From Psychrobacter sp. JB385 (GTDB lineage: Bacteria; Pseudomonadota; Gammaproteobacteria; Pseudomonadales; Moraxellaceae), in assembly GCF_900163785.1 (NCBI RefSeq), contig NZ_FUKN01000010.1:298994-362993 (forward strand): a stretch of DNA of 64,000 nt, in the 5' to 3' direction. Every line of letters begins with the position of its first letter. The first letter of the stretch is position 1. Below the pieces are notes generated by a model. The model made no database searches. It was not told the DNA's origin and saw only the letters and a list, made by a program, of their open reading frames with translations. Below, one piece after another: positions 4,741-53,077 of the stretch. Both the position numbers and the translations under genes were made by a program.

Positions 4741-5481
4741 ATGAAATTACAAGACAGAGTGGCGATTATATTTGGTGGCACTTCAGGATTGGGTGAAGCA
4801 ACGGCTAAAGCGTTCGCTAATGAAGGCGCTAAAGTAGTCGTCACAGGGCGCGATGAGGAAGACGGCAATCGAATAGTTAAAGATATTACAGATAACAATC
4901 AAGACGCCATCTTTGTAAAAGCTAATGTGACGCAAAAGAGCGATATTCAAGCAGTCGTTGACAAAGCGTTAACGACTTATGATCAGATTGATATTTTGTA
5001 CAACGGTGCTGGTATCCATGACGCTTATGACAATGCTGTTGAGCTAGAAGAAGATTTTTACGATCAATTGATGGCGATTAATGTCAAAGCCCCTTATCTG
5101 GCTGCCAAGATGGTGATTCCACATTTTATTAAGCAAGGTGGCGGCACCATTATTAATGTCGGTTCGCAAGCGACACAAATGGCAGGGCCGGGCGGCTCAG
5201 CCTATGTGACGTCCAAACATGCTATTTTGGGATTCTCGAAACAGTTGGCTTTCGATTTTGGTAGTCAAGGCATCAAAGTTAATACATTGTCGCCAGGTTT
5301 TATAGAAACACCAATGACTGAGGGTATTGACGATGAGCGTTTAGATCGTATTCCGGCTCAACGTGCTGGTAAGCCTGAAGAAATTGCTGCACTTGCCGTG
5401 TTTCTGGCCTCTGAAGATTCTAATTACATGCAAGGCGCTAACGTTTTGATGGATGGTGGTTGGGTACTAGGCCGCAAATAA
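4741..5481 (+). CDS. Short-chain dehydrogenase/reductase (classical SDR)
   Basis: A 246-residue cytoplasmic NAD(P)-dependent oxidoreductase. The Rossmann glycine motif GGTSGLGEA starts near residue 12, the NNAG-type motif is present as NGAG, and the catalytic pair appears in AYVTSKHA (Tyr near 156, Lys near 160). The C-terminus GANVLMDGGWVLG matches the 3-oxoacyl-ACP reductase/glucose dehydrogenase-like subgroup. The substrate cannot be predicted. A ribosome site AAAGAG precedes the ATG. It is a single gene followed by a strong terminator, lying inside the segment bracketed by the two cysH 3' ends, so it may have arrived with that cassette. Confidence 0.9.
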   Translation: MKLQDRVAIIFGGTSGLGEATAKAFANEGAKVVVTGRDEEDGNRIVKDITDNNQDAIFVKANVTQKSDIQAVVDKALTTYDQIDILYNGAGIHDAYDNAVELEEDFYDQLMAINVKAPYLAAKMVIPHFIKQGGGTIINVGSQATQMAGPGGSAYVTSKHAILGFSKQLAFDFGSQGIKVNTLSPGFIETPMTEGIDDERLDRIPAQRAGKPEEIAALAVFLASEDSNYMQGANVLMDGGWVLGRK

Positions 5482-36522: not shown

Positions 36523-37950
36523 CTAAAAGACCACGTCAGATTTTGTCTGGCTTCTCGTCTTAGACAGCTTACCTTGGTCTTGTAACGCCTCAATTTTTTC
36601 TAAGTACTGTTGTCCCAATTCAGGCTCTGCTGAGGCAATCCAAGCAGCATATCCTGATAAGGTGTCAAGGGTTTCGCCATCCCGTAAAGACTGTCCTGAA
36701 TCCAGATTGTGAAGAGCCGCCCGTAGCATACGCTTTATTTTACGTGGTACACGTGGCACACCTTCGCCATTGACCACCATACCAGTGACCGTATGCTGAT
36801 TACCCATACGAATGACGCGCGTCTTATCATCATTCAAGATAAAGCCTTCTTCTCGCAAAATCTTATGTACAGAACCCAATAGCTGCCCAATGAGTTGATT
36901 ATGATCAGACGGCTGAGCAGCATTCTCGGTGCTGGTGGAATTGGCTGGTAAGCTAAACGTCAAGTCATCGGCGTAGCGGCTATAGCGCAGACCTACTTTA
37001 TCCGCCAGTCCTGTCAGGCGGCGGTCAAGGTTGATACAGACAATGTTGGTCAAAGCAGGACTGGTTGGTGCGCCTTGTGGTAAGGCTCTATCACTGAGCG
37101 CCACGTAATACGTTTTGCCATTTTGCTGCACCATCTGTCTTGGCGATTCTGTACACAATAAAGCCAATAAGGTGGCTATTTGCTCAGGATAGCCTGCGTG
37201 ACGAAACACGCCTTTGACGCGCCGCCAATGCACACTAGGAAAAAAATCTTTGACATCCAGCTTGATGAGCAGGGCGCTATTACTGTGTACCGCTGCATTG
37301 GTGACAATGGATTTACCACGAACAAAGCCATGAGCGGCGCCATGCGTCGTTAGATTGTTTAGAATGTTCTCCAAAATCCAGCGCTGGACAAATTTGAGCC
37401 GAGGAATAGGCGACCATATCTGCCGAGGCGTGCCGTTACGTTTATTGATCGTAAAATGCGTGTAGGGGATATTGGTTGCCACCTCTCTTTGATAGCAAAG
37501 CCCTTTTAGCTGCGGCACGCTCAGATTGACAGCGTCTGCCAACTGCGTATGTTTGTTAATGAGTGGGAGTTTATTTTCAATAAGACGATTGCTGGCGTCT
37601 TTGATATCCCATTTGTCTATACTGGTGTCATCTGACCAATAAATGTGGCGACCCAAATAGACAATATGCTGTGCTTTGTAAGCTTGCCATGCCATTTTTT
37701 TAAAGTTCTTTTCTTCAGCTGCTTCTTTTTTAAGCGCTTTTTTATAGCGTTCGCGCTCTTTTGGCGTCATGTTATCGATGGGCTTGCGCTCGACCATAAA
37801 CCCGTGCTGTATCATTTGCTGCTGGATATACTGATAACGCCCACCAGCGTCTTCAATGTTTTGCCACAGTTGTTGCCATTGACGCTCAGATGAGGTCATA
37901 GTCTGAACGGAGCTAATGTAATCGGTTTGCTGATTGTTTGGTGCGGTCAT
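36523..37950 (-). CDS. Retron-type reverse transcriptase
   Basis: 475 residues. Polymerase motifs are clear: LDVKDFFPSVHW (motif A Asp), QGAPTSPALTN, and the catalytic RYSRYADDLTFS near 326. The retron-specific NAxxH motif is present as TNAAVH near 217 and the VTG motif as HTVTGMVVN near 387; these bind the cognate msr RNA and distinguish retrons from group II intron RTs. The N-terminal 150 residues extend beyond short retron RTs. Last gene of the four-gene operon; AAAGGGG lies at the end of the preceding SWIM gene, only 3 bp away. The template RNA is proposed at 51657-51981. Reverse transcription of that RNA would give a hairpin msDNA. Confidence 0.93.
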   Translation of the reverse strand: MTAPNNQQTDYISSVQTMTSSERQWQQLWQNIEDAGGRYQYIQQQMIQHGFMVERKPIDNMTPKERERYKKALKKEAAEEKNFKKMAWQAYKAQHIVYLGRHIYWSDDTSIDKWDIKDASNRLIENKLPLINKHTQLADAVNLSVPQLKGLCYQREVATNIPYTHFTINKRNGTPRQIWSPIPRLKFVQRWILENILNNLTTHGAAHGFVRGKSIVTNAAVHSNSALLIKLDVKDFFPSVHWRRVKGVFRHAGYPEQIATLLALLCTESPRQMVQQNGKTYYVALSDRALPQGAPTSPALTNIVCINLDRRLTGLADKVGLRYSRYADDLTFSLPANSTSTENAAQPSDHNQLIGQLLGSVHKILREEGFILNDDKTRVIRMGNQHTVTGMVVNGEGVPRVPRKIKRMLRAALHNLDSGQSLRDGETLDTLSGYAAWIASAEPELGQQYLEKIEALQDQGKLSKTRSQTKSDVVF

Positions 37951-37953
37951 GGG

Positions 37954-40128
37954 TTATACCCCTTTATTTTCGATAAAGCCTTTGGCTTCAAATCTGGCAA
38001 TGTGTTGTAAAAATGCGGCATGAGCGTCGGCAGGTTGATTGAATACGAACTGCTGACGCGTACTGTCATCATCGATGACCTGCTCAATCAACAATTTTTT
38101 GTGGTCACAAGTCAAATACACGTAGCGGACAGTATGCGCCGTAGGGTTATTTGACGACGGCTTTGCGTGTGTGTCATCTGATGGCAAGCCTTGAGCAAGA
38201 GTCGATAAATCTAAGATATTACTGGTGGGCAATATTGATTGAGCAGTCTCTTTAGTAAATGACGGTTTTGCTTTATTTTTTGGTTGAACCTTAGGGACCC
38301 GTTTGCTAAGGGTGCGCGTGTCATGCCAGCTGTTTGTCTGCGTGTGGTCGTATCGATGGTAGCTTAAGCGTAAGGCGATAAGATGCGCGCAGATGCCTTG
38401 GCTAAGACGGTGCTGCAAATACTGCGGACAGCTGCACACGGCGCGACTGACCAAGCCATCTTCGCCCAATTGCAACTGACTTTGATAAGTGTGGCGATCT
38501 TCTTTGACATGAATATCGGCGCTGATGGATACGCCTTGCGTCGCTATTGTCTGCACGCTTAGATTTTGTACGCTATCCTTACGACCAACTAAGTCAAATG
38601 CCTGTTTTTCTGCCTCACTATGATGCGAAAATTGCGCCATATCGAGTGGCGTCTGCGTCAATGGACGATAATAATAAGACTGGTTGGCCGTGTCATAACG
38701 AATCAATCCCTGCTGAGCACCTGATAATAACTGCTGGCGTACATAACTAGCTGTCAGTAAATTATCTGATGTACGTAGCGCGGATAAACGCTCGGTTAAG
38801 ACATCGATATGGCTTGGTTGCTCTGCAAGCGCTTGTATCAGCGGTAACACATCATCGTTATGGCTTTCATCCTTTAGTGCGTTTTGCTGCGGGCGCGTGG
38901 GTAATAGCAAATCAAAATTTAGAGATTGCGACCAGTTTGCTTGGCTAAAGCCTGTCATGGCAAAGGTAAAATGAAAGCCTTTACCCGTAAGCGTCCAGTA
39001 GCTTGGCATGCCTTGTCCAAGGAGCGACACACTGACGGTGTCGGTATGCGGCAACAAGCGCTTTAATAAGCTTAGGCGGCGACGACCCCACAAGCGAATG
39101 AGCTTGGCTTTTTGTCCTTGATAGGGCGTTTGCTGGCGACTGACTTGGCTGGTGACGGCAATATCAAATGGCTCTAAAATAATCACTGGTAACTGCTGCG
39201 GTATCAGCTCAATCAATAAACCGCGGCGCTTACCTTTGATGTCGGCATGCATACGCAGCTCAAATAAAACGTTGTATAACGCAATAGGATCAAGATCAAT
39301 GCGTTCGTGTGCCAGCTGACCTGCTGACTGCACTTGCAACAATGCGCGTATCCAACTCTTAGGCACATTGATACGTTTTTCGATGACTTCATGTTTATTA
39401 TCATCGTTTACCGTAGCATCCATTTCGGACTCAGCATTGTCTGTCGACGCTAATAAGTCTGAACGCTGTAGACGTACTGCTTCTTGACCAATATCTAAGG
39501 TGGTTGTTTGATGATCACGGATTTGCTCAATACCATCAAATAAGGCGCTACTGTAATCAATACTGGTGGTGCCAAGCACTGGCGCTGCGTCCGTTTCAAA
39601 CAAATCATGCTGCAAGGTCAATTGCGCATAGCAGCCTTCATCACGGCTAAATACCTCAAAACTGACACCTGTTTGGTGCACTTGAATGATAGGGTCAAGA
39701 AGACAGAAGGCCAAAGGATCATTGTCAAACAGCCATGTGAAGTAATCACGCTGGGCAGAGAATAAGTTCTTATGACGACTGGCGCGGCGCATTTGCATAA
39801 AAACGGCATAGGCGGCGCGGTCTTTTGGCACGTAGCGGTAGTCGCTGCTGACCACGTCAAATAAGGCAAGTAAGCTATCTCGAAACACCAGTGGATCTTT
39901 TACCGTGCCATGAAAGCTGACGGCATCACGTTCTAATTGTGTGAACAGCGCCACATGTCGGCTGTGGGTGGATTGTTGATCTACCGATAAGCAGACATGA
40001 CTTGGCGCAGCATAATTTAGCGCCATTATCAGGCCATCATTGGTCTTGTCATTGCCTGCTGGCGTGTCATCTTGACTGATTGCTGAGGCGTCTTGCTCAA
40101 TTGGGTTGTCTACTTGATTATTGGTCAT
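37954..40128 (-). CDS. Winged-helix and SWIM zinc-finger protein of the retron operon
   Basis: 724 residues. A SWIM zinc finger is visible as SCPQYLQHRLSQGICAHLIA, with Cys at about 564 and 566, Cys near 580 and His near 582 (CxCxnCxH). A helical region before it (DVLTERLSALRTSDNLLT, then YVRQQLLSGAQQGLIRYD) looks like a winged helix. Acidic and Asp/Asn-rich linkers occur at both ends. SWIM fingers bind nucleic acid or protein. It overlaps the 3' end of the HEAT gene by 11 bases, so the two are coupled, and RT begins 3 bp after it. Retron systems with WH-SWIM and ARM/HEAT partners are, to my recollection, called type XIII. Confidence 0.88.
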   Translation of the reverse strand: MTNNQVDNPIEQDASAISQDDTPAGNDKTNDGLIMALNYAAPSHVCLSVDQQSTHSRHVALFTQLERDAVSFHGTVKDPLVFRDSLLALFDVVSSDYRYVPKDRAAYAVFMQMRRASRHKNLFSAQRDYFTWLFDNDPLAFCLLDPIIQVHQTGVSFEVFSRDEGCYAQLTLQHDLFETDAAPVLGTTSIDYSSALFDGIEQIRDHQTTTLDIGQEAVRLQRSDLLASTDNAESEMDATVNDDNKHEVIEKRINVPKSWIRALLQVQSAGQLAHERIDLDPIALYNVLFELRMHADIKGKRRGLLIELIPQQLPVIILEPFDIAVTSQVSRQQTPYQGQKAKLIRLWGRRRLSLLKRLLPHTDTVSVSLLGQGMPSYWTLTGKGFHFTFAMTGFSQANWSQSLNFDLLLPTRPQQNALKDESHNDDVLPLIQALAEQPSHIDVLTERLSALRTSDNLLTASYVRQQLLSGAQQGLIRYDTANQSYYYRPLTQTPLDMAQFSHHSEAEKQAFDLVGRKDSVQNLSVQTIATQGVSISADIHVKEDRHTYQSQLQLGEDGLVSRAVCSCPQYLQHRLSQGICAHLIALRLSYHRYDHTQTNSWHDTRTLSKRVPKVQPKNKAKPSFTKETAQSILPTSNILDLSTLAQGLPSDDTHAKPSSNNPTAHTVRYVYLTCDHKKLLIEQVIDDDSTRQQFVFNQPADAHAAFLQHIARFEAKGFIENKGV

Positions 40129-43100
40129 GATGCTGTCCTTCGCCCTGATTTTGTTGCGTATCTGCGGCCTTTAAATGAGTTGCCTTCATCACCTGTAAGT
40201 TAGGCGCTTGCGGGCGTTTTTGCTGAACGCGCGTCATATTGCGTTGCCAGCGACGCAAAACTTTGTAAGCCAGTTTTTGAATATCAGAATTAACCTCAGC
40301 AGATGCTTGAATTAAAGCATCCAGCCACGTGCCAATATTGGGGTCATGCAACTGTCCGAGTGCTTCGATGGCGCGTATTCGTATGGCAGTTTCAGCGTGA
40401 TGATTCTGTGCGCAGTGATATAGCGCAGCAGCGTCTTTAGCCTTTATTGCAGCCAGTAACTGCTCATTTAGGTCTGTTTGAGGCGTTACGTTGAGTACCT
40501 CCGTATCATCACTACGTTGTGAAAACAAACCCACCAACCGTGACAACGCACCCGCTTCATTTACTTTGTTTACTTGAGCATCTTGCACACTCAAGCGCTC
40601 GAGTAGGGTGGACAATAGCGCGTTATCGTCTGTAGCTAATTGCACGGTTTGATCATGGGCAATGCCGGTCAGAGTTGGTATTAGCTCAGTCAGCAAATGA
40701 TCGTCGCTCGCCTGCCGTGCCAGTAGCCCTAATAAGGCTTGCTGCCAATAGTGGCTGACCGCAGTAGCAAGCGCGGTCACGCTACTAATAACAGGTGAGG
40801 CTAGCTGCGCTGCTAACCATATAAACACGGCTTTATCAGGTGTAGTATAGCGACAAGTGATCCACAATAGATGGGTGATAGTATTTGCTACTTGCCGTAC
40901 CTCGGTCAGCCATGAATCATCCTGCCGCATTGCTGGACGCGCTATGAGGCTATCAAGTAGTGCTTGCCATTGCTGCTGAGCGTTGACTAGGTGTTGCTTG
41001 CAGTCAATCTGCATCTGCGTATCAAGATACTGATTAGGGTACTGAGTGATATATCGTAGGCCTATGTGCTGTATCTGCGCATCCGGATTGTCCATCAAAC
41101 TACGAAGCTGCGGATGGCTCATATCTGGTTTTGCCAATAGCGCATTTTGTAATACGGTATATGTCTGTGCGGGTAGTTGATGAATATGCTCAGTGATGAA
41201 AGGCGCCAGCGTATCAATGCTGCTATACGTTACGATACGTTTGAGACTCAGCGTTGCTAATATCGCAAAGTCCTCATTTGGGTTTTGTATTGCCGCCCAA
41301 TCGTATATATAGATATGATCAGCATGGCTGCCCCATAGGTTTTGTGCCGCTGTATAAGCGGTTTCTAGTATCGCTGTCTGCTCGCTGTATTGTTTGAGAA
41401 TATCTAGTAGCAGTGTTTTATTTGCCTCACTATCATGATGTGACAATAAAGAGATGGCGTGCTGCTGCGGTGCAAACAGTAATTGCTGATGCAGCTGGCG
41501 CTGTATGTGACTACGGATTTGCGCCCAAGCGGCATTTGTATTCAACCAGCGCAGCCCATTTAACCAGTGAGTAATAGCTGGGTTATAAGGCTGTAACTCA
41601 GGGTCTGATAACTGCGATGTCAGTAAGTCAAAAATCTGAGCGCTATATTCAAAGTGACCACCTTGCGCGATATGCCCCAACGCTTCAGAGGCCACGTCTT
41701 GCAAGTAATGCTCATCATCTTCTGCCAGTTTGATCAACTTATCATAAGCTTTGTATAGTGCATTTGTCATGTCCGTGGTTTGGACAGCAGAGGACTGTAT
41801 CGACTTGTCGGCAGGTTGAGGTTCAACCTGCATCATCTCCCCGATGGCAAGGACACTACGGCGACGAATATCACCATCCGTATGATAATCAATACTTGCC
41901 ATTAACGTGCTCAAGCCCTCACTATTACCGCAAAGTGCCAAACCTTCCGCGGCCAAAAATGGTATGTGCGCGTCTTTGTTCGATAGCGCTTTTTTGAGTA
42001 TGTTTTTTAGGGTATCTGCATTATTTTTGCATTTTTTTGCACGGTAAGCGATGGCTTCAATCAGGTTTTGAGTATATTTGGCAGGTAACTGCTCATAAGC
42101 CAAAGCCAAGGCTTTATCAATACGCGTAGCAATATCTTCTTTGTCGGTGCTATGGTGTTTACCAATGATATCTTTAATAATAGTAGTGTTTGGCTCGCAG
42201 ACAGCAGGTATCCAAGCCAGTGATTTTAACAGCTGGGCGGCATGGGCGTAGTCGGCATAGCGAAGGAGTAAAACAAATAAAGACAGTAGCCCTGCAGGAT
42301 CTCTTGGATACTGCTGTTGTAGCCAGCGCAAATCCTTATCCTCACCCAAGTAATCAGAAATAGGTTGGTCGTAGCCGCTTATCATCACAAGCGTATCAAA
42401 CAGCTGCTGGCGCTCTTGATGTGAGTGAGAAGCTGGATGTTCGAACAGTTTTTGTAAGCGGTGGCGTAAAGGCGCTGCCATATACTTATCACGAAGCGCG
42501 CCAATATTTCGATACAAGTCAGCATTTGATAGCTTGAGTGTTGAATTATCTAGTAAGTCCAATAGCTTGTTGTAGGCTGTCTGAGCCACTTGCTCAACAC
42601 TCTTTTTATCAAGTTCTTTATTAATATCGTTATTGTGCGCGGCGGCTTGCACGCGCTGGCAAGATTGCAATACTTGAGTAATAAGAGACAAAATTTGACC
42701 TTGCTCATATTTGTTTGTACTGTCGAGCAAAAAGGCAAACAGCTCGTCAATAAGCTTTGTATTGTTAAACGCAGTATCGGTAAACAAGACCTCGTCAAAC
42801 TCTATAAGCTGCATAAAGGTCTGATAACGTGCCTGCCAGTCATGACAATGGCGCGCTTGTAATAAAAAAGTCAGCTTGTCTTGGCGCAATGCTTGCTCTG
42901 ATAACACCTGATCAGAGGTATCTAGTGTGGTTGCCGTCGTAATGGTCGAATTGGAAGCGCGAGTTGTGATTTGACGCCACTCACTGACCAACTGGCGCAA
43001 GAGCGGTAAGCTCTCGGTATGCAGTGCCATTAGGCTTGCTGGTAGATGCCCCACGCGCGCTTTTAATAGCTGATAAGTCTCTTCTGCCAATAGCTGATGA

Positions 43101-46100
43101 TTGGTGAGTAGTAGGCTTCTGAGCTGTTTATCAATAAGGGCAGCGTCATCTTTGCTCTCAATCAGACACTGCAAACCGCGCTTGACCATATCACGATACG
43201 GCGTACTCATTGCATACTCAGCCAGCTTTGACGCCAGAACAGGTAGCTGGGTTAGGCAATCCCATGCCAGCTCGCGCGTCTCAATATGAGGACGATGCAG
43301 TAGAGGCAACAGCGCACGACTGACACTATCCGCCCAGTCGATAGCTTTAGATGGATTGCTATCGGCTGATGCTTTGGTCAGCCACATTAGCCCGCGAATT
43401 GCTTGCTCGGTGCTGCTATTGTCATTGTCGCTTTCACGAATCACACCAAGCCACGCGCCAAACGCAAGTGTCTGGTAGCTATGATCGGTGTCAATTCTGC
43501 GTAAACCTTGCTGACTGGCATCATCAGTAACAGGTACACTGTGGTGACGCTGAAGTAAGGCCTCGATACTGCGTCGCCATGATTGTATGGCAGTAACTAC
43601 TTGTGCCACATCGTCATAAGGTTGCTGCGTCAGTAGATGGGATAAATGACCCAATACTGCTACCGCTTGCGCACGTATCAAAGGGTGCTCATGCTGGGTC
43701 AAGTGTGCAAAGTGCTGCAAGTCTGCGACATCCACAGTACTAAGGATATTGGCGCGTGCGTCAGTCGTGCTAAGCGCGTTTGTGCCACTTGTCTCTGATA
43801 ACAGTGTTAGCGTCTTTGGGTGGGCAGACAAAATGCTGTCAATCTTCTGCGAGAGGTATTTACTGAGGTATTGCCAATTAGATATTAAAGGCAGGTCAAA
43901 GCGTGCCAATACATGTGCATAAACAACAGCGGTCTCATTGTCTGCAAAGCTAAGCGCCTCAATCAAGCGCTCAGGTCGCATGAGCGGTAGTGCTAATGGT
44001 GACGCCAAGGCATTAAATATGAGCAATAATCTAGCTGCTGGTGCATAAGATTGCGTATCGAATAACTCGCGCAGTTGCTGTGCCTGCGTAATACCCAAAC
44101 CTGCGCGCGCTTGTAGCCACTGAATAGGGCCAATAGGCTCGACAAGATGGCGCAAGCTACCTTGGTTGTTATCGTTGGTACGAGCACTGTTGCTCGATGT
44201 GTTGCTAAAAAAATGCTGGCCGCGACTGTCGCCCCAAACTGCCAAAGCCAAACTGGCTGATTGACGAATAATAGGTCGCTCGTCTTTTTGCCATGTGCCT
44301 AACACATCAGCCACTTCGGCATCTTGTGCAGGCGCAACGTACATAAGCTTTGGGGCAAGCGCTTTAAAATCTGCATCTGGATGATGTAGGTAACGCGCAT
44401 ACCAATCTAAAGCGTGATATTTTTGTGGATCAGAGAGCGTTGCTAAGCCCGTTAGTGCTTCTGTGATATGGTGATGCCACTGCTTATAATCCTCATTATT
44501 TTTCTTATCAATGACGACTACAGGCATTTCTTTATTTAGATACTGCTCAAAGACTGCGTAAGCACTGGCTTCATACTGCGTTTTTAGCGGTTCAGGGTAA
44601 TCACGAGATTGACGTGCCAGCAATTTGGCAACGGTCAGTTGAATATCAGGATAAGGACTACTTAGCCCTGCGCTGAATAATGCCTCATGATCGATTGGAC
44701 TGGTATCATTGTCATTTTTACGACTACTGTTATGGTTTGGACTGAACGAAATGCCCATATCAGTGGCCGCCAAAGCGACCTCTAATGCTTGCTGGCGTAA
44801 GTCCATACTATCATCGGCTAACAAAGCGATTAAGGCAGGCATCAAGTCACGCAGATGCTGGGTGCTGGCTTTGGTTTGCAAATGGCTGAGCGCCAAACGT
44901 TTGATATCGAGATAAGGGCTCGCCAGTGCGGTCAACATCAGCTCGGTAAATCCGAGGCGCTTGCTATTTTTAAGTGCTGTATCAAACGCTTGCTTACGGA
45001 TATTGGCAAAGTTATCTGCAAATAGCAAAGTCAAAACGGCTTGATAGGTGTCTGTAGTACTGTCTTGCGTCGTAGCTGATTTTGACGCGCTTTTTAGTAA
45101 TAACCGCTGCCATTCTTCTAGTGCCACTTGATGCACATCCTCAAATAGACTGTGCTGTAGCTGCTCAATCATATTGATAATGGCGGTTTTGGACGCGCGT
45201 TCAAGCGCTCGATTGAGCAGCACTTTGACCACTTCAAGGCGAATACTGGTGAAAGGGTTATTAAGTGCTTGCGCTAGTATTGTGCTCATGCTTGATGAGT
45301 CAGCAGATACTTTTTTGTCATTGAGCACTTGTGTCAGCAATATCGCAAGCGCGCGCTCATGAATGTCTTGATGCTTTGATGCAAAACCAAACGCCACCCA
45401 AGAAAGATCATCACTGACAAGCTTACCTAACGCGCTCATGGCCACTTGACGCACGCTTGCGTCAGGATCATCAAGCAAGATGGGCAAAATGGCTTTACCA
45501 TCGACTAACTGTAGATATCCCAAAGCAGCAGCGACGCCTGCACGAATGAACGCATCATTCTTGTGATGCATAAACCGTATCAAGGTGCCAAATGCGCGCT
45601 CATCTTGCAAGCAGGCAAGGGCATAGGCGGCACGAAACCCGATGTCTTCGTAGCGATTACTCAAGTTTTGTAATAAAGGCTCAAGGCTTGAGTTATTTAG
45701 TATGGGGCTTTTATCTGTTGCTCGTTCTGGTGTGGACGTTTGTGCTGCTGATGCAGCAAAATCCTGCGTATTCAATACAAGGTTGATGGCAGCGCTGTCC
45801 TCTTCGGTGCCCTGAGTAGTACGCCCAATCGCATTTTTATTTTGTTGATCAAAACGTTTGCCTATCTTGATAGTTACTAGCTCATCATGATCGGACGTAC
45901 GCTTATCCGCTTTTACGTTATCAAAGATTGTACCGCGCAGTAAGCGAAAATCATCAAAGTCGGTCAATGTGCGTAGTAACTGAGCGTCATCCAGAGCATG
46001 CGCTTGCTGTTTTAAAGCAGTGATGAGCTCAGGCTGCGCCAGTAAAGCGGCATAAAAGGCAGTTTGTCTGACGTCGGCTTGATGATGGCTTTGTAGTAGC

Positions 46101-47893
46101 ATCAGCTGGCGCGATACTTCTGGGTTATCCAATAAGCCACGCTGATAGAGTCGAATCAGACCTGCTTGAATAATGTCAGGGTAGCGACTGTCCAAAGCCA
46201 TAAAATCTGCTTTTGGACTGATATCTGGCAGTAAATGCTCAAGCGATGCCAACGCTTGCCGGCGAATGGGCAGCATAGAATGTGACAGCGCTTGTTGCAA
46301 AATCGGCAATACACGAGGCTGTTTGTCCGCGTCTTGAACGGCGATTTTTAGATAGCTTTGTAGTGCGGCGCTAATGACGTCTTCGTTGGCGCATCCAAGA
46401 GCATATTCTAAATAAGCAGGTAGTACGTGAGGACTTGCCGTATGAGTGGCAGCGATAGCCAGACCCTCAAACGCTGCAAGGCGGACACTACTACTGCGCG
46501 GTGAGTTGAGCTGCTCCTCGAGTATCGCTAAGCGCGTCTCAAGCGTTGTGCCAGCGAGCCACTGTACTAATTGTAAAGCGCGACTGGCGCTCAAACTATT
46601 ACTACGATCTGCTAAAAGGCGTCCAACCAGCTTGATCGTTTGCTGATCCGCTTGTGATTCAAGCAGTGCCAAGCCCTCTAAAAACGCTACTTCACTGTTA
46701 TTGCTATGGTCAGTGAGTAGCTGCTGAACGCGATGATATCCATCCTCGATGACAGTGGCAACCGTTAGGAGCTTACTGTTTTGTGTCTCATCAATCGGCA
46801 AAAAACGCAGGCTTTGATCCGTGCCAACTACCAGTAGTGCAGGTTTTTCTGCATAGCTTGAATAGACCAGTCGCTGCGTTTTACTAAGGTCTTCCTTGCA
46901 GGTGTTTGGCTGACCTTTATCAAACGCCCATGATTTAATACTGTTGTCATCGGCACTAGTAAATAGGCGCGTATCTGAGACACAAAGCGCAGTGATCATT
47001 TGACTGTGCTGGCTTGATTTGGCTCTATCTATCGCTTGTAGTTCACCTTGTACATGAGTGCGATAAAGTTGCTTGTCTGTACCTGCTGAAAAAAAGTAAT
47101 GACCAATAGGCTCAAAGCACAGGGCATTGACGCGGCCTTGATGTAATGGCTTATGGCTACTTTGAATCAGCTGAGCGCCAGTATCATCATTACTTAGCCA
47201 TTGATAGCTACTGACGTTACCGAGATTATCGCCTATTACGAGCCACTTACCATCACTGGATGTCGCAAGCGAAGTGGCTTTTTGAGATTTACTATCTGCA
47301 TAAGGTTGCACGATAATCTGATTGGCGATTGTCTGCACTAATGGGCTTAAAGAATCATTACTAGCAAATGGACAGACGACGATGTCATTGGGATATAACA
47401 CAAGGACAGCTTGATGCAGCGTGGTCATCGCAATTGCTTGCGGGCTGCTATTCGTTGATAAGGATTTGGTGACAAACTCAGTGTCTGTATTAGTCTCTGT
47501 ATTTTCAGTGCTATTCTGAGCCTCAATCATGCTTGCAAATAATGACTCTTGACTGATTTTATGGATTATCTCTCCTTGCCAGTCGGTCTGATATAAGTGC
47601 CCATCACAGCCGAGCAATATAATAGTGTCATCAGTTATCGTGGTAATGGCATCCATCGCACAGGGTAATGCAGTGGTTGATAAGCTTATTTGCTCACCGA
47701 TATTATCGAGTCGATACAAGTCTGCATGGCTGCTTTCAGCACCTAGCGGCTGTCGAGTGATGAATAAACTGCGACTCTGTGCGACTGGTAGCGCTGCTGA
47801 TTTTGTGGTTTTTTGCGGTGTATACTCAGGAGTGAATGGTCTGCTGACCAAACCTATAATCTGACCCCAATAGGGCAATACAATTGTTTTCAT
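40118..47893 (-). CDS. Giant WD40/HEAT-repeat protein of the retron operon
   Basis: 2591 residues, the largest gene here. The first 400 residues have WD40-like blades (SSDGKWLVIGDNLGNVSSYQW, HQGRVNALCFEPIGHYFFSA, TSADDNSIKSWAF), forming a likely beta-propeller. From about 400 to 2560 there are repeated helical HEAT/ARM motifs, for example DASVRQVAMSALGKLV, DPELQPYNPAITHWL, and HAETAIRIRAIEALGQLHDP near the end. Such solenoids act as scaffolds. The C-terminus is basic. It follows the BRCT gene by 68 bp and overlaps the SWIM gene by 11 bp. No catalytic motif was recognised. Confidence 0.88.
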   Translation of the reverse strand: MKTIVLPYWGQIIGLVSRPFTPEYTPQKTTKSAALPVAQSRSLFITRQPLGAESSHADLYRLDNIGEQISLSTTALPCAMDAITTITDDTIILLGCDGHLYQTDWQGEIIHKISQESLFASMIEAQNSTENTETNTDTEFVTKSLSTNSSPQAIAMTTLHQAVLVLYPNDIVVCPFASNDSLSPLVQTIANQIIVQPYADSKSQKATSLATSSDGKWLVIGDNLGNVSSYQWLSNDDTGAQLIQSSHKPLHQGRVNALCFEPIGHYFFSAGTDKQLYRTHVQGELQAIDRAKSSQHSQMITALCVSDTRLFTSADDNSIKSWAFDKGQPNTCKEDLSKTQRLVYSSYAEKPALLVVGTDQSLRFLPIDETQNSKLLTVATVIEDGYHRVQQLLTDHSNNSEVAFLEGLALLESQADQQTIKLVGRLLADRSNSLSASRALQLVQWLAGTTLETRLAILEEQLNSPRSSSVRLAAFEGLAIAATHTASPHVLPAYLEYALGCANEDVISAALQSYLKIAVQDADKQPRVLPILQQALSHSMLPIRRQALASLEHLLPDISPKADFMALDSRYPDIIQAGLIRLYQRGLLDNPEVSRQLMLLQSHHQADVRQTAFYAALLAQPELITALKQQAHALDDAQLLRTLTDFDDFRLLRGTIFDNVKADKRTSDHDELVTIKIGKRFDQQNKNAIGRTTQGTEEDSAAINLVLNTQDFAASAAQTSTPERATDKSPILNNSSLEPLLQNLSNRYEDIGFRAAYALACLQDERAFGTLIRFMHHKNDAFIRAGVAAALGYLQLVDGKAILPILLDDPDASVRQVAMSALGKLVSDDLSWVAFGFASKHQDIHERALAILLTQVLNDKKVSADSSSMSTILAQALNNPFTSIRLEVVKVLLNRALERASKTAIINMIEQLQHSLFEDVHQVALEEWQRLLLKSASKSATTQDSTTDTYQAVLTLLFADNFANIRKQAFDTALKNSKRLGFTELMLTALASPYLDIKRLALSHLQTKASTQHLRDLMPALIALLADDSMDLRQQALEVALAATDMGISFSPNHNSSRKNDNDTSPIDHEALFSAGLSSPYPDIQLTVAKLLARQSRDYPEPLKTQYEASAYAVFEQYLNKEMPVVVIDKKNNEDYKQWHHHITEALTGLATLSDPQKYHALDWYARYLHHPDADFKALAPKLMYVAPAQDAEVADVLGTWQKDERPIIRQSASLALAVWGDSRGQHFFSNTSSNSARTNDNNQGSLRHLVEPIGPIQWLQARAGLGITQAQQLRELFDTQSYAPAARLLLIFNALASPLALPLMRPERLIEALSFADNETAVVYAHVLARFDLPLISNWQYLSKYLSQKIDSILSAHPKTLTLLSETSGTNALSTTDARANILSTVDVADLQHFAHLTQHEHPLIRAQAVAVLGHLSHLLTQQPYDDVAQVVTAIQSWRRSIEALLQRHHSVPVTDDASQQGLRRIDTDHSYQTLAFGAWLGVIRESDNDNSSTEQAIRGLMWLTKASADSNPSKAIDWADSVSRALLPLLHRPHIETRELAWDCLTQLPVLASKLAEYAMSTPYRDMVKRGLQCLIESKDDAALIDKQLRSLLLTNHQLLAEETYQLLKARVGHLPASLMALHTESLPLLRQLVSEWRQITTRASNSTITTATTLDTSDQVLSEQALRQDKLTFLLQARHCHDWQARYQTFMQLIEFDEVLFTDTAFNNTKLIDELFAFLLDSTNKYEQGQILSLITQVLQSCQRVQAAAHNNDINKELDKKSVEQVAQTAYNKLLDLLDNSTLKLSNADLYRNIGALRDKYMAAPLRHRLQKLFEHPASHSHQERQQLFDTLVMISGYDQPISDYLGEDKDLRWLQQQYPRDPAGLLSLFVLLLRYADYAHAAQLLKSLAWIPAVCEPNTTIIKDIIGKHHSTDKEDIATRIDKALALAYEQLPAKYTQNLIEAIAYRAKKCKNNADTLKNILKKALSNKDAHIPFLAAEGLALCGNSEGLSTLMASIDYHTDGDIRRRSVLAIGEMMQVEPQPADKSIQSSAVQTTDMTNALYKAYDKLIKLAEDDEHYLQDVASEALGHIAQGGHFEYSAQIFDLLTSQLSDPELQPYNPAITHWLNGLRWLNTNAAWAQIRSHIQRQLHQQLLFAPQQHAISLLSHHDSEANKTLLLDILKQYSEQTAILETAYTAAQNLWGSHADHIYIYDWAAIQNPNEDFAILATLSLKRIVTYSSIDTLAPFITEHIHQLPAQTYTVLQNALLAKPDMSHPQLRSLMDNPDAQIQHIGLRYITQYPNQYLDTQMQIDCKQHLVNAQQQWQALLDSLIARPAMRQDDSWLTEVRQVANTITHLLWITCRYTTPDKAVFIWLAAQLASPVISSVTALATAVSHYWQQALLGLLARQASDDHLLTELIPTLTGIAHDQTVQLATDDNALLSTLLERLSVQDAQVNKVNEAGALSRLVGLFSQRSDDTEVLNVTPQTDLNEQLLAAIKAKDAAALYHCAQNHHAETAIRIRAIEALGQLHDPNIGTWLDALIQASAEVNSDIQKLAYKVLRRWQRNMTRVQQKRPQAPNLQVMKATHLKAADTQQNQGEGQHHDQ

Positions 47894-47961
47894 GATCTAA
47901 TCTCAGTTGAAATGGCGTCGTGTGATGTGCTCATTTTTCTTATTTTTTCGCTACTTACTCT

Positions 47962-50900
47962 CTAACTTGAGCTAGCTGTTAAGGGCTGTAAATGTTCGGA
48001 CAACTGGGGGTAGCGGTGCAATAAGCGCGTGACAGCGGTCAGACATGCATGACGCTCCATCTTGCCTGCAGAATGGGTAAAGGTGTACAACAAAGGCATA
48101 ATCAACTTAGCAAAATACTCATCCGCCAATCCCACATCACGGAATGTCTCAATCAATGCCAGTTTTGCTTGGCTGGCAGGTATGGGTTTGGGTGAGAGGA
48201 TTTCTGCTTGATCTGTCGCTCCCTGTGTTTTGTCAGGGCGCTGCGAATATTTTGAATGACGACCTTGCTCGTTTTTTTGTGAGTTTGATCGTTCATTGTT
48301 GTTAGAAGGACTCAATCGTCCTGGTGGCAACTCAAACAGTCCACGTCTTAATAGCATTAGTAATTGATTCAAATCAGCAGGGGGGTTGGTTGACCAATCA
48401 CTTGGCGCGGTATGCGTAAAGGTTTTTGTGTCAGTTTTTGCATGGGGCTCAGTGTTAGCAGTGCTTGTTTTGCTTGCTAGTGCACTCTCATTTTTATCAT
48501 GCTGGTTTGCAGGCTGCCAAAGAGGCGAGACATGGCGCGCCTTATACTGCTTCCACAGCATAGTCACTGCGGCATAGCGTATTTCACGATCAGCGCTTTG
48601 GCTTAATAAGTAAAGAGACTTCGGATTTTGAAATTGATGATGTCGCTGTAATAATTTCATGCCAAGCTGCCGTGCCAGTCGTTTTTTGCTACCAATGAAT
48701 GCGTTGAGCATAGCCTCGTTAAACTGCTCTACAGGTACATGGTAAGCGCGATTGCTGACAGAAGGTGCTGCCAATAGCGCTTGTTGCAACAGCTTCGTGA
48801 CCTCAAGATAAGGCGATTCTGCCATTATCAGCCAAAGCGTCGGCGTTGGCGACCACTTAGCCAGCTCATATTTTGTTAATAAGAGGCCGAAATGACGTAG
48901 CGCTTGCTGACTGCTTTGCAATAACGGTATAACGCGCTTGGCGCTAAAAAATGCAGAGGGAATAATCGCATCGGGATCGACAGGCCTATCCGTTAATGCC
49001 ATACAAATCTGCTCGTGATGATGACTGAGATAACTGATCGCCAGCTCGCTGACGGGTGCCGTAGGATCGTCGATTGCCATTGACCACAGCACTTCTGCAC
49101 CTGCTACTGTATCGTCTTCGGATGCTGCACGTGATTGTCCTGTCAGCATCTGCAAAAATGCGGTTTCTGATATGATTTTGAGGGGTGCGCCTGCGGTAAT
49201 TAATGCCTCGGCTTTGAGCTGCTTACTGCCTTTGCGACCAGCGCCGTATAGAGGCGAGCCATCATCACCGATTACCAAATAGTCCAACTTATTATTCACG
49301 GCACTACTGATCGCACCATTGGCTGCTTTGACCAGCTTTTCAGCATCGCCTCGGCTCATGCTTTGCATTTTACCTGTAAACAAATAACGCTGATTGTCCA
49401 AATCGACAGTAACTTCGTTGGCTCCAGTGGTTTGAGTGGTGTTTGTATTTTTAGCCTGATCTTCTTCTAATGACATCTTCTGAGTGGTCGCAAAATCAGC
49501 GGGCAAGAAACCTTTATTAATGCGTTCAATCGCAAATTCACGGTATGCTGAATGCTCACTGCGAGCAAGTGTCATGAGCCACTCAAACCCTAACTCAGTT
49601 GGTACAAACCGGCGCACATCAGCTAACCAACCGCGCACGGTATCAGCCAAATATTCATCAAAGGTTAGATCTTTTTGCCACTGTTTGACCGTATTTACAT
49701 TTGAGGGAGTTTTTCCCTCATCATCATAATGGTTGAGATAGGGAGTGTTTTTGAGCTGTGCAATCTCCTTACTGCTATGCCAATCAGGCTCATAGGCGAG
49801 CGCGTGCCAATAGGGCATGGGAATCTTATTTCCTGACAAGATATCTTCATCGATCCAATCAACGATCGTCTGCTGCGCTAGTGGATGCAGCAATAAATAC
49901 TGCCATACTTTGTTATCTACAGTGCTCAGATCAAGACGCTTGAGTTCTTGTAGCGCAAAGTTCATGCACAGATAGCTGCTGTCACCGCTTTGCGTCATAT
50001 CCAGATGCATTGCTAAGCGAATAAAATAATCGATCCCAAGCTCTGCTGCGCTATATAGCTCAGGTAGCCTACGTATGGCAAAGCGCATGCTGTAATACTG
50101 ATTGCTGATCAATCGTTCAAAAAACCATTCAGCCGTCAGATCACGGCGTGTGAAGTGCTTACCGAGTTGCTCGGCGGCAATATTGTGGTGATAAGAGGTA
50201 TCTAATAACTGTCCCCAACCTGATACCCCAATATCATTGACGGGATGACGACTCAAAATAACACTGATGGCAAAGCTGCGAATAGGCTCATGATCTGACA
50301 TGGCTAGCATCATTAGCTCTGCCAACGGGAGAGATTGTGCATAACTTTTGGCATAACCGATGGCATACTGATAAGCGGCAGGATAGCTTGAACGTAATAA
50401 CTTGAGAACCACCTCATGCAATCCAAGCGCTACAAATTTTGACTTCTCAAAATGCGGGGATTGCTCAATCAGCCATACGATCATCTCATCGCGTGCCTGA
50501 CTGTGTGCATAGCCTGCCGATAGATATTGAATGGTTTGATGGCTCACATCACGTAGCTGGATCTTAAAGTCGTGTTTTAGACTGTCCGTCGCAAATTGCC
50601 GTATGGCCTCGTTCTTCGCTGTTGCTAATAGCCTAATCAGCGGTTCAGAATCACGTTGCCATGCGTCTTTAAACGCGCGACCTTTATTATCAAACAATTT
50701 ACGCGGTGCGTGGCTATGAAATCGACTGACACCATAGTCCGCTGAGTTGTGAAAACAAATGTGATTGAGCACCCAACTGTTGATTTGTGGCAATTGACCG
50801 ATGGCCATAGTTTCATCATAGCTGGCAAGCACGCAAACTGCGGCCTCAATATAGCCCATTGGCATCTGCTGACCCAATTTACGCAGATAGCGCCATGCTC

Positions 50901-51420
50901 TGAGGCTCATATAGGTTTTGGTAGCAAGACTGACGGAGTCTCGGGCCTTTTGGTCAAAACGATGCAAATCAATTTTGGCAGTGATAGGCGCAAAAATCTC
51001 ATAATCTTGCTCATATTCAGCCGCTTTATAAATATATTTTAACCCGCGCCAAACGCCGTAACTCAAAGGCAAATCATTGATAGCTTGCTTTAAGATGGCT
51101 CTTGAGTAGGCGCTTTTATCTTCCCAAAGTGCGATTAATATTAAGTGAATTTTGTAGCGATCAGGGAGAGGGTAGGTGCCTTCATCTGATTCTAAGACTG
51201 CCATCATCGCTACACGCTCTGCAAACTGTGTTCCAGGATGCTGCTCGCGGAATGAATAACTCAAAATCTTATGTAAAAATCGCTCAAATGTCAGCTCATC
51301 CTCTGGTATCGGCGATTCAGGTAACGGATCGGGCTGCTGGGATAATAAACAAAGCTTTTCGACCAAGCTTGGATCTTGTACCTGCCAAGCATGCTGAATT
51401 TGTTCGAACGACAGACTCAT
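47962..51420 (-). CDS. HEAT-like repeat protein with BRCT domain, first gene of the retron operon
   Basis: 1152 residues from ATG 51420 (AAGGCA upstream; the frame is open to an ATG at 51471 inside the proposed promoter). Long helical repeats flank a BRCT domain at about residues 665-757: VDLDNQRYLFTGKMQSMSRG, then AANGAISSAVNNKLDYLVIG, GSKQLKAEALITAGAPLKI. This has the pattern of ligase/RFC-type BRCT domains, which bind 5'-phosphorylated DNA ends or other partners. A Ser/Asn/Gln-rich linker lies at about 1030-1085. A BRCT domain in a retron operon is notable, since it might contact msDNA or invading DNA ends. No enzymatic motif was found. Confidence 0.87.
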   Translation of the reverse strand: MSLSFEQIQHAWQVQDPSLVEKLCLLSQQPDPLPESPIPEDELTFERFLHKILSYSFREQHPGTQFAERVAMMAVLESDEGTYPLPDRYKIHLILIALWEDKSAYSRAILKQAINDLPLSYGVWRGLKYIYKAAEYEQDYEIFAPITAKIDLHRFDQKARDSVSLATKTYMSLRAWRYLRKLGQQMPMGYIEAAVCVLASYDETMAIGQLPQINSWVLNHICFHNSADYGVSRFHSHAPRKLFDNKGRAFKDAWQRDSEPLIRLLATAKNEAIRQFATDSLKHDFKIQLRDVSHQTIQYLSAGYAHSQARDEMIVWLIEQSPHFEKSKFVALGLHEVVLKLLRSSYPAAYQYAIGYAKSYAQSLPLAELMMLAMSDHEPIRSFAISVILSRHPVNDIGVSGWGQLLDTSYHHNIAAEQLGKHFTRRDLTAEWFFERLISNQYYSMRFAIRRLPELYSAAELGIDYFIRLAMHLDMTQSGDSSYLCMNFALQELKRLDLSTVDNKVWQYLLLHPLAQQTIVDWIDEDILSGNKIPMPYWHALAYEPDWHSSKEIAQLKNTPYLNHYDDEGKTPSNVNTVKQWQKDLTFDEYLADTVRGWLADVRRFVPTELGFEWLMTLARSEHSAYREFAIERINKGFLPADFATTQKMSLEEDQAKNTNTTQTTGANEVTVDLDNQRYLFTGKMQSMSRGDAEKLVKAANGAISSAVNNKLDYLVIGDDGSPLYGAGRKGSKQLKAEALITAGAPLKIISETAFLQMLTGQSRAASEDDTVAGAEVLWSMAIDDPTAPVSELAISYLSHHHEQICMALTDRPVDPDAIIPSAFFSAKRVIPLLQSSQQALRHFGLLLTKYELAKWSPTPTLWLIMAESPYLEVTKLLQQALLAAPSVSNRAYHVPVEQFNEAMLNAFIGSKKRLARQLGMKLLQRHHQFQNPKSLYLLSQSADREIRYAAVTMLWKQYKARHVSPLWQPANQHDKNESALASKTSTANTEPHAKTDTKTFTHTAPSDWSTNPPADLNQLLMLLRRGLFELPPGRLSPSNNNERSNSQKNEQGRHSKYSQRPDKTQGATDQAEILSPKPIPASQAKLALIETFRDVGLADEYFAKLIMPLLYTFTHSAGKMERHACLTAVTRLLHRYPQLSEHLQPLTASSS

Positions 51421-51471
51421 AGTGGTGTGCCTTAATAATAATGTAGTCAGCGAATGATATTTTGTAAGCAT

Positions 51472-51622: not shown

Positions 51623-51652
51623 TTGACAGCTTGATTGAGATTAGGGCAGAAT
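51623..51652 (+). promoter_or_regulatory. Candidate promoter of the retron RNA
   Basis: TTGACA (51623-51628, perfect -35) and CAGAAT (51647-51652, 4/6 match to -10) with an 18-bp spacer. The predicted start falls at about 51657-51660, right at the 5' end of the a1 arm (51659). This supports a plus-strand RNA here, divergent from the protein operon. Confidence 0.7.
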
Positions 51653-51656
51653 AGGG

Positions 51657-51981
51657 ACGTTGTGAGATTTAGCGTTTCGCCGTTTTCGGTGAAGGACGAT
51701 GCTGCGTCGTCCACGAGTCAAGCCATTACATTTTACCCAAGGAAGACTGTTTCAGTCCTGCTAATACCTAGATAGTGCCCCTAGTGTCATTAGCTCGCTG
51801 GCGCAACCACGCAATCGTGGTTGAGCTAATGCACTAGGGGCACTATCTAGGTGCAGTCCAGTGAGTCTTCCATGTACCAGGTTATGAGGTAGATTACACA
51901 ACACTGAATGAGACATCGTTATGATGCTATTCAAAACACTAAACCCAAGTCAGTCATTATGTACTGGCTTGGGTTTTTTGT
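51657..51981 (+). ncRNA. Retron msr-msd RNA, divergent from its RT operon
   Basis: Order on the plus strand: a1 arm GTTGTGAGATTTA (51659-51671) that pairs, with one mismatch and two G-U pairs, to a2 TAGATTACACAAC (51890-51902). Immediately after a1 is TTTAGCG, matching the branch-guanosine context of known retrons such as Ec86 (G at 51672 as candidate branch). Two msr hairpins follow: 51676-51693 (loop TTTT) and 51694-51712 (GGACGA/TCGTCC). Then the msd: an outer stem GGAAGACT/AGTCTTCC (51741/51864) and a 21-bp perfect stem at 51766-51786 with 51832-51852. That stem extends through CATTAGCTC/GAGCTAATG and AACCACG/CGTGGTT to a CAAT loop at 51812-51815. A terminator is at 51941-51979. The protein operon runs the opposite way, which is unusual. 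Read on the minus strand the a1/branch arrangement is lost. Confidence 0.85.
51941..51979 (+). terminator. Terminator of the retron RNA
   Basis: AACCCAAG and CTTGGGTT form the main stem, extended by CAGT/ACTG, followed by a run of six T on the plus strand only. This gives strand direction to the RNA. Confidence 0.85.
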
Positions 51982-52078
51982 TGTCCTAATTATCATCGAT
52001 GTACTTAAAAGTTAGATAGCTTAAGATATCGTTATTTTTATTAGATTATAGTGTGATATCACGCGACGAGAGCTTTTT

Positions 52079-53077
52079 ATGAATGATGATGCGGTAAGAG
52101 TAGAGATATATGAAAGTGCAGATGGACAGACTCAGATTGAGATTCGCTTAGAGCATGATACTTTATGGCTCTCACAAGCACAATTGGCCACACTATTTGA
52201 AAAAGACTCTGACACGATTGGTTTGCACCTAAAAAACATCTATAAAGAAGGTGAGTTAGACCCAGAAGCAACTACCGAGCAATCCTCGGTAGTTCGTCAG
52301 GAGGGTAAGCGACAAGTCCGTCGTAATATTCGATTTTATAATCTGGATGCCATTATCTCTGTGGGCTACCGTGTGAACTCCAAAAAAGGCACTCAGTTCC
52401 GCATTTGGGCCACCCAGCGCTTACGTGAGTATTTGGTACAAGGATATACGCTTAACCAACAGCGTCTTGATAAAAACTCTAATGAGTTGCAGCAAGCGTT
52501 AAACCTTATCAGAAAAACAGCACAAAGCCCTGAGCTGAATACCGATGAAGGACGCGGCCTAGTTGAAATAATCAGTCGCTATACACAGACGTTTTTATGG
52601 TTACAGCGCTATGACGAGGGTCTATTAGATGATCCAGCAGGGCAAGAAGGCGGCATCTTACCCAGTCCAACTGACGCAATGGACGCGCTCAACAACTTAA
52701 AATCACAGCTAATCGATAGAGGCGAGGCGACTGAGCTATTTGCCAAGCCTCGTGGTGACGGCTTGAGTAGTGTGCTTGGCAATTTAGAGCAAACGGTGTT
52801 TGGGGAGCCTGCTTATCCGACTATCGAGAGTAAGGCGGCGCATTTATTGTATTTCATGGTGAAAAACCATCCCTTTACTGATGGCAATAAACGTAGCGGA
52901 GCCTTCTTATTTGTAGATTTTTTACATCGTAACGGACGCTTACTTAATGATAAAGGTGAGATGGTGATCAATAACACAGGTCTTGCTGCTTTAACCTTGT
53001 TGGTCGCTGAGTCTGACCCGAATCAAAAGGAAACCTTGATTAAATTGATTATGAACATGTTGTCGCTGGAAGTTTGA
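52079..53077 (+). CDS. RhuM-type N-terminal domain fused to Fic/DOC domain
   Basis: 332 residues. The N-terminal half is of the RhuM virulence-protein family (LWLSQAQLATLFEKDSDTIG, RFYNLDAIISVGYRVNSKKG, TQFRIWATQRLREYL). The C-terminal half has the complete Fic active-site motif HPFTDGNKRSGA near residue 265, so the enzyme may transfer AMP or another phosphate-containing group to a target protein. It starts 98 bp after the retron RNA terminator on the same strand. It could be an independent toxin-like gene or an accessory of the retron; linkage is only by position. Confidence 0.88.
   Translation: MNDDAVRVEIYESADGQTQIEIRLEHDTLWLSQAQLATLFEKDSDTIGLHLKNIYKEGELDPEATTEQSSVVRQEGKRQVRRNIRFYNLDAIISVGYRVNSKKGTQFRIWATQRLREYLVQGYTLNQQRLDKNSNELQQALNLIRKTAQSPELNTDEGRGLVEIISRYTQTFLWLQRYDEGLLDDPAGQEGGILPSPTDAMDALNNLKSQLIDRGEATELFAKPRGDGLSSVLGNLEQTVFGEPAYPTIESKAAHLLYFMVKNHPFTDGNKRSGAFLFVDFLHRNGRLLNDKGEMVINNTGLAALTLLVAESDPNQKETLIKLIMNMLSLEV

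Follow-up and report, generated by a model that had tools for sequence, protein, structure and literature searches.

A conserved structured RNA at the head of a Psychrobacter type XIII retron operon is a likely msr-msd template encoded far from its reverse transcriptase

The DNA examined here (the window) is a 64,000-nt stretch of Psychrobacter sp. JB385 (contig NZ_FUKN01000010.1, positions 298,994 to 362,993), which carries a four-gene operon on its minus strand (36523-51471, by first ATG) and, on the plus strand ahead of gene 1, a structured element at 51659-51902. A reading made from the letters alone (the sequence-only reading) had proposed this element to be a complete retron msr-msd RNA in a divergent transcription unit of its own. 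We analysed the covariation and conservation of the predicted structure, its co-occurrence with the reverse transcriptase (RT) of the operon, where and on which strand it lies in relatives, and the motifs of the RT. Given that the best PADLOC profiles of genes 1 to 4 are HEAT-ARM_XIII, HEAT-ARM_XIII, SWIM_XIII and RT_XIII, the operon is a type XIII retron, complete with the SWIM and HEAT/ARM accessory genes of that type. The RT is the only one detected genome-wide at E up to 0.001, and the nearest named RTs are from Psychrobacter. It has NAAVH, YADD and VTG at the places of the retron RT motifs NAxxH, YxDD and VTG, and NAXXH and VTG are conserved in retron RTs according to the excerpted text of PMC6868368. 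Its best match in the PDB is the Ec86 RT (E 1.3e-37), with Drt2 far behind (E 7.7e-8). As had been read from the sequence, the RT is the last gene of this 15-kb operon on the other strand, and the distance from the RNA (a1 arm) to the RT start codon (37950), put at about 13.7 kb, measures 13.7 kb. With only 3 bp between the SWIM and RT genes, 68 bp between genes 1 and 2, and an overlap of genes 2 and 3, there is no space for a template between the operon genes.

The promoter, a1/a2 arms, TTTAGCG motif, two msr hairpins, msd hairpin and plus-strand terminator named in the sequence-only reading could each be located (Table 1), in the order a1, AGC, two msr hairpins, msd base stem, long msd hairpin, a2 and terminator. 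The fold of 51657-51906 has a computed energy of -118.7 kcal/mol (z -10.9), which 0/200 shuffles equalled, and the main stem of the msd hairpin consists of 21, 9 and 7 pairs. Since the RNA is palindromic it also scores on the opposite strand, but far lower (34.7 vs 266.5 bits on the plus strand with our covariance model R1). No Rfam family reached its gathering score within the window; the best sub-threshold match was mir-17 (28.9 bits vs 49.5 needed), and such matches were set aside as hairpin look-alikes. The TTGACA hexamer of the predicted promoter is kept in 22/24 aligned Psychrobacter rows, the other two having TTGCCA.

Table 1. Predicted parts of the RNA and genes of the operon, in window coordinates. 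PMC8989520 and PMC6868368 are cited from excerpts.
Feature	Coordinates	Strand	Remarks
Predicted sigma-70 promoter of RNA	51623..51652	+	TTGACA at 51623, 18-bp spacer, CAGAAT ending 51652; 10/12 consensus matches
a1 arm	51659..51671	+	pairs with 51890-51902
Predicted priming (branch) guanosine in AGC	51672	+	TTTAGCG; TAGC invariant in 21/21 head-type copies; AGC rule from PMC6868368
msr hairpin 1	51676..51693	+	from the fold; sequence and length variable outside Psychrobacter
msr hairpin 2	51694..51712	+	8 pairs, 4 changed on both sides; 97.6% of cells paired
msd base stem, 5' side (GGAAGACT)	51741..51748	+	pairs with 51864-51871; nearly invariant; one pair changed on both sides
Long msd hairpin	51758..51856	+	helices 5 and 6: 33 pairs, 33/33 changed on both sides
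msd base stem, 3' side (AGTCTTCC)	51864..51871	+	pairs with 51741-51748
a2 arm	51890..51902	+	pairs with a1; copying start predicted at about 51889 from retron rules (PMC8989520)
Intrinsic terminator of RNA	51941..51983	+	14-pair stem at 51941-51976, then T-run
Gene 1, HEAT/ARM protein of retron XIII with BRCT-like segment	47962..51420 (longest ORF to 51471)	-	PADLOC PDLC02921, 1020 bits; probable start
Gene 2, HEAT/ARM protein of retron XIII, WD40-like N-terminus (Pfam)	40118..47893	-	PADLOC PDLC02919, 1403 bits
Gene 3, SWIM_XIII protein	37954..40128	-	predicted model: residues 71-401 = PCNA sliding-clamp fold
Gene 4, retron RT type XIII	36523..37950	-	PADLOC PDLC02956 (RT_XIII), 532 bits

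The structure is supported by covariation. We aligned 21 copies, of which 11 came from Psychrobacter, where 29 genomes have a match, and 10 were full copies from outside the genus; the compensatory changes that the sequence-only reading had suggested looking for were found in 46 of the 67 pairs, which changed on both sides. Overall, 94.1% of cells are paired; the figure falls to 75.5% for shuffles and to 36-40% when the partners are slid. Because the structure was derived from the alignment under test, these controls are biased in its favour, though the margin is large nevertheless. For the a1/a2 arms, compared in 17 of the 21 aligned copies, the mean pairing score was 11.7 within loci vs 7.7 across lineages, with 13/200 cross pairs equally good. 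The element thus has inverted a1/a2 arms, an AGC adjoining a1, and an msd hairpin under selection for structure. A terminator-like site on the same strand follows the RNA in 19/21 copies, vs 6/400 random windows, and such a site lies upstream of the RNA in 3/21.

Within the genus, the RNA goes with the RT. Among 105 Psychrobacter genomes, 34 have some RT match and 25 a type XIII RT (best piece at least 71% identical; G049 and G088 are included with their RTs in pieces), the remaining nine matches being weak (E 1.9e-13 or worse) and left out of the type XIII count. R1 detects the RNA in 25/25 genomes with a type XIII RT and in 4/80 others (Fisher p 2.4e-20, shared ancestry ignored); in two of the 25 the copy is incomplete, with an N run inside the msd in G057 and a cut at the contig end in G095. 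In G008, G021 and G061, which have the RNA and no RT, the operon is reduced to a gene-1 stub of about 96 residues and the RNA is shortened by about 65 nt in the msd and by 3 nt in msr hairpin 2, while what remains still resembles intact copies closely. These losses may represent one shared event; the RNA hairpin thus decays where the operon is lost. A gene-1 stub with decayed RNA and the rest of the operon missing is seen at L175 8387-9057, L176 9993-10663 and L177 9042-9712, from three Psychrobacter.

In 23/23 genomes where one contig holds both gene 1 and the RNA, the RNA is divergent from the operon and lies 132-398 bp from gene 1; it is 13.0-14.6 kb from the RT in the 21 Psychrobacter genomes measured. 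It is also more conserved than its neighbours: 16 full-length Psychrobacter copies are 93-97% identical to the window copy and the three most divergent (G078, G079 and G035, the latter with an inverted loop) 84-85%, while gene-1 DNA is 65-93% identical and the flanks are often unalignable. L018 (G035) and L170 (G068) carry the inner part of the msd hairpin in inverted orientation compared with the other Psychrobacter copies, a flip within the palindrome. A 40-nt DNA match in G018, which lies inside a long ORF and was missed by R1, was counted as chance.

To look beyond the genus, we scanned a species collection with a SWIM alignment, which gave 37 loci, 22 from Psychrobacter and 15 from others. 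Ten of the 15 come from genomes that also carry gene 1 of this operon, namely Thiolinea, Thiofilum, two Thiothrix, a Thiothrix metagenome-assembled genome (MAG; HyVt), and MAGs of Thiotrichaceae, Proteobacteria, Moraxellaceae, Planctomycetota and Desulfobacterales. The four genes have the same order on one contig in 8/10, with gene 2 of the Moraxellaceae MAG in two frames. The rest of the 15 comprise a locus that ends before the operon head (L133), three with another layout (L135, L136, L137), and one with a SWIM piece only and no RT seen (L138). The RNA precedes gene 1 in 10/10 non-genus genomes with a readable head, although the Thiotrichaceae MAG retains only the 3' part at a contig end. 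The expectation of a conserved RNA at the head of homologous operons was therefore borne out both here and in the 25 Psychrobacter genomes. In all ten non-genus genomes, however, the RNA is co-directional with gene 1. The claim of a divergent unit accordingly holds for Psychrobacter and not elsewhere; divergence is a Psychrobacter trait. In Thiolinea disciformis (L139, minus strand), tandem RNA copies at 5160-5414 and 4807-5061, with differing msd hairpins, precede one operon, perhaps giving two msDNAs (multicopy single-stranded DNAs) from one RT.

The RNA was similarly restricted among 369 genomes of the class. With strict filters R1 matched three of them, G000 (the window's own genome), G178 and G409, all among the eight with a SWIM_XIII match; RT_XIII scored above 500 bits in seven. 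Full-length gene-1 matches, with coordinates identical to those in the genomes of L125 and L124, were found in G178 and G409, and weak ones only in G221, in a query of the SWIM_XIII genomes that left out G105, G263, G374 and G344. G221, G263, G344 and G105 have SWIM-like genes with no RT beside them on the contig stretch read.

Other type XIII loci place a similar RNA elsewhere. In L135, L136, L137, L164, L165 and L178, about 300-440 nt between SWIM and RT fold into arms, an msr hairpin and an msd hairpin, and a second covariance model, R2, built on these six also finds L179 (E 1.2e-42) and L180 (E 2.5e-53), neither used in building, just before the RT. A similar RNA thus stands directly before the RT, on the same strand, in 8/8 other type XIII loci examined, and the SWIM protein is upstream of the RT in 6/8. 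R1 detects these RNAs at E < 0.001 in 6/8 loci (three with filters off), the other two giving E 0.027 and 0.21. RT_XIII is the best profile for L136 and L137, the two of these loci tested with PADLOC. The RTs are 510-643 aa long in 5/6 listed before-RT loci (L135 is cut by the contig), vs 420-506 aa for intact head-type RTs. G221 has RT and RNA on one contig (L179, C36) and HEAT and SWIM genes on another (L163, C39), so that its retron parts may be unlinked. Lower-scoring RT matches in G227, G454 and G228 had no match with R1 or R2.

We also considered a second RNA beside the RT of the head-type operons. No copy was found there by R1 in the window and L102-L134, or by R2 in the window, L123-L129, L131-L134 and 5/22 Psychrobacter loci, and this candidate was rejected, in agreement with the sequence-only reading, which had named a different RNA adjacent to the RT as a finding that would refute it. 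The placement of a type XIII template away from its RT, proposed in the same reading, applies to head-type operons and not to the eight other loci. The usual retron layout, with the RNA beside the RT in one transcript, is absent from the window, where the two are 13.7 kb apart on opposite strands and 3 bp separate SWIM and RT; because this arrangement persists at other type XIII loci whose RNA is similar, we treat it as a layout and not as a definition of a retron. In an RT tree of 35 rows, which includes 14 Psychrobacter RTs and in which L179 and L180 were not placed, the six before-RT loci fall on one side of a branch (100/100) and Psychrobacter on another (100/100), with the co-directional head type between, and three changes are needed. 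On the simplest reading, the template would have moved from before the RT to the operon head in the same direction, and then been turned by a single inversion in Psychrobacter. We infer these three steps from a tree whose root is unsure because the outgroup branches are very long.

Several further observations weigh against a template gene of this kind. The promoter scan by itself is not above chance (three sites vs a shuffle mean of 2.2), such that the hexamers alone are no proof. By the terminator rule used above, 2/21 copies lack a terminator and 5/21 also have one on the reverse strand, and in Thiothrix (L141) the promoter and terminator scan used for the window RNA finds neither on the RNA strand, a short terminator appearing under the looser rule applied to the 21 copies. 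G068 has an intact RNA without a detectable RT; its gene 2 is shortened, with what reads as transposase-like sequence at the contig end. In 2/10 non-genus genomes (L143 with L129, L151 with L134) gene 1 with the RNA and SWIM-RT are on different contigs, and their linkage is assumed. Finally, head-type and before-RT RNAs resemble each other weakly: of five before-RT loci searched by R1 under default filters, L136 alone was found, and R2 reaches a head-type RNA at no better than E 0.036 (L147), its other matches being short and partial.

On balance, the covarying stems and the co-occurrence with the RT favour the interpretation as an msr-msd RNA, and we consider it very probable that 51659-51902 (+) is a structured, conserved RNA that likely serves as msr-msd template for the type XIII retron on the other strand, with a predicted promoter of its own and predicted action in trans with an RT 13.7 kb away. 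Its constant nearness to gene 1 and the terminator-like site after most copies would also fit a cis-regulatory leader or attenuator, or a small RNA that regulates the HEAT/SWIM/RT operon, but we regard this as improbable. In Psychrobacter the structure is kept on the other strand, outside the operon leader, the retron parts (a1/a2, AGC, msd hairpin) are present, and the similar RNAs of eight other loci stand right before the RT. Since a cis leader would not survive a flip away from its operon, the inversion argues for a diffusible product, and a role as cis leader only was rejected.

Less probable still is an RT-bound template that is not a retron, without 2'-5' primed msDNA, as in DRT (defence-associated reverse transcriptase) systems with neighbouring RNAs. 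While the msDNA of the window RNA is only predicted, and large HEAT/ARM proteins are unlike the well studied retron effectors, the RT has NAxxH and VTG, its closest solved relatives are retron RTs and not Drt2, and the AGC after a1 is invariant. That a mobile palindrome or the remnant of an insertion has come to lie beside the operon by chance, as the element's very strong inverted repeat and the flipped hairpin interiors of G035 and G068 might suggest, is hardly credible and was rejected, given the element's single place in its own genome, no match in plasmid or phage collections, and an operon in each of the three class genomes that match.

For the msr-msd template, we infer transcription of the RNA, msDNA formation and action in trans as follows. 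The RNA would end at its own terminator, with a1 paired to a2; the RT would bind the msr in trans and prime from the 2'-OH of G51672, in line with initiation from a conserved guanosine beside a1/a2 as given in the excerpted PMC8989520. Copying of the msd from about 51889 leftwards would yield a hairpin DNA, long hairpin included, that is no longer than about 150 nt. Together with the SWIM and HEAT proteins, the msDNA could then form a complex for phage defence that unleashes its activity upon disturbance by a phage, a step assumed here because in the system of PMC12548924, as excerpted, RT and RT-DNA neutralise an effector until phage disturbs them.

Gene 1 probably starts at 51420 instead of 51471, as its profile match begins at residue 18, and its BRCT match is weak (RFC1, E 0.0096). 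The SWIM_XIII protein is predicted to have the two-domain fold of PCNA-type sliding clamps; this is based on a second model (mean predicted local distance difference test score, pLDDT, 72.3), and a first, poor model (mean pLDDT 62) already matched clamps. Comparison of the SWIM profile with PDB sequences gave no convincing match, and 29 pattern matches in viral contigs included no relative of the SWIM protein. The predicted PCNA-like fold suggests a possible link between the type XIII retron and the DNA replication machinery. More speculatively, and in our view rather unlikely as a whole, the template could be an autonomous, strand-flippable msr-msd gene at the operon head, freed from the RT transcript, whose DNA hairpin is handled by the SWIM clamp with its HEAT/BRCT partners; held by the clamp, the msDNA would imitate a replication intermediate for the replication proteins of a phage to disturb. 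Just past the RNA terminator, a RhuM/Fic-type gene at 52079-53077 (+) matches the PADLOC candidate PDC-S23.

The protein set is already known from PADLOC, which according to excerpts also includes msr-msd covariance models. In the literature searched, with the type-defining paper outside that search, we found neither a type XIII RNA described nor a template at the operon head or in divergent orientation. For a retron class in which that literature showed us no RNA, the element provides a testable one, for which both the priming site and the DNA product are predicted. It also indicates that the template of a retron can be a separate gene at a great distance from the RT, and RNA finders that search only beside RT genes would therefore miss such an RNA.

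Type XIII retrons, as represented by RT_XIII, SWIM_XIII and HEAT-ARM_XIII, are the best profile matches for all four window proteins and likewise for four Thiolinea proteins, and RT_XIII is the best match for the tested RTs of Planctomycetota, Desulfobacterales, Massilia and Rubritalea loci. With Retron-Eco1 (Ec86) and other canonical retrons the window shares a1/a2 arms, an AGC priming site, msr and msd hairpins and the RT motifs (PMC6868368 and PMC8989520, as excerpted). Canonical retrons form one polycistronic cassette with the msr-msd before the RT (PMC6868368; also PMC8867640, both as excerpted), in contrast to the 13.7 kb and opposite strands of the window. Among type XIII retrons, the before-RT loci (L135, L136, L137, L164, L165, L178, L179 and L180) have a weakly but detectably similar RNA on the same strand just ahead of the RT, whereas the template in the window is a divergent unit at the operon head.
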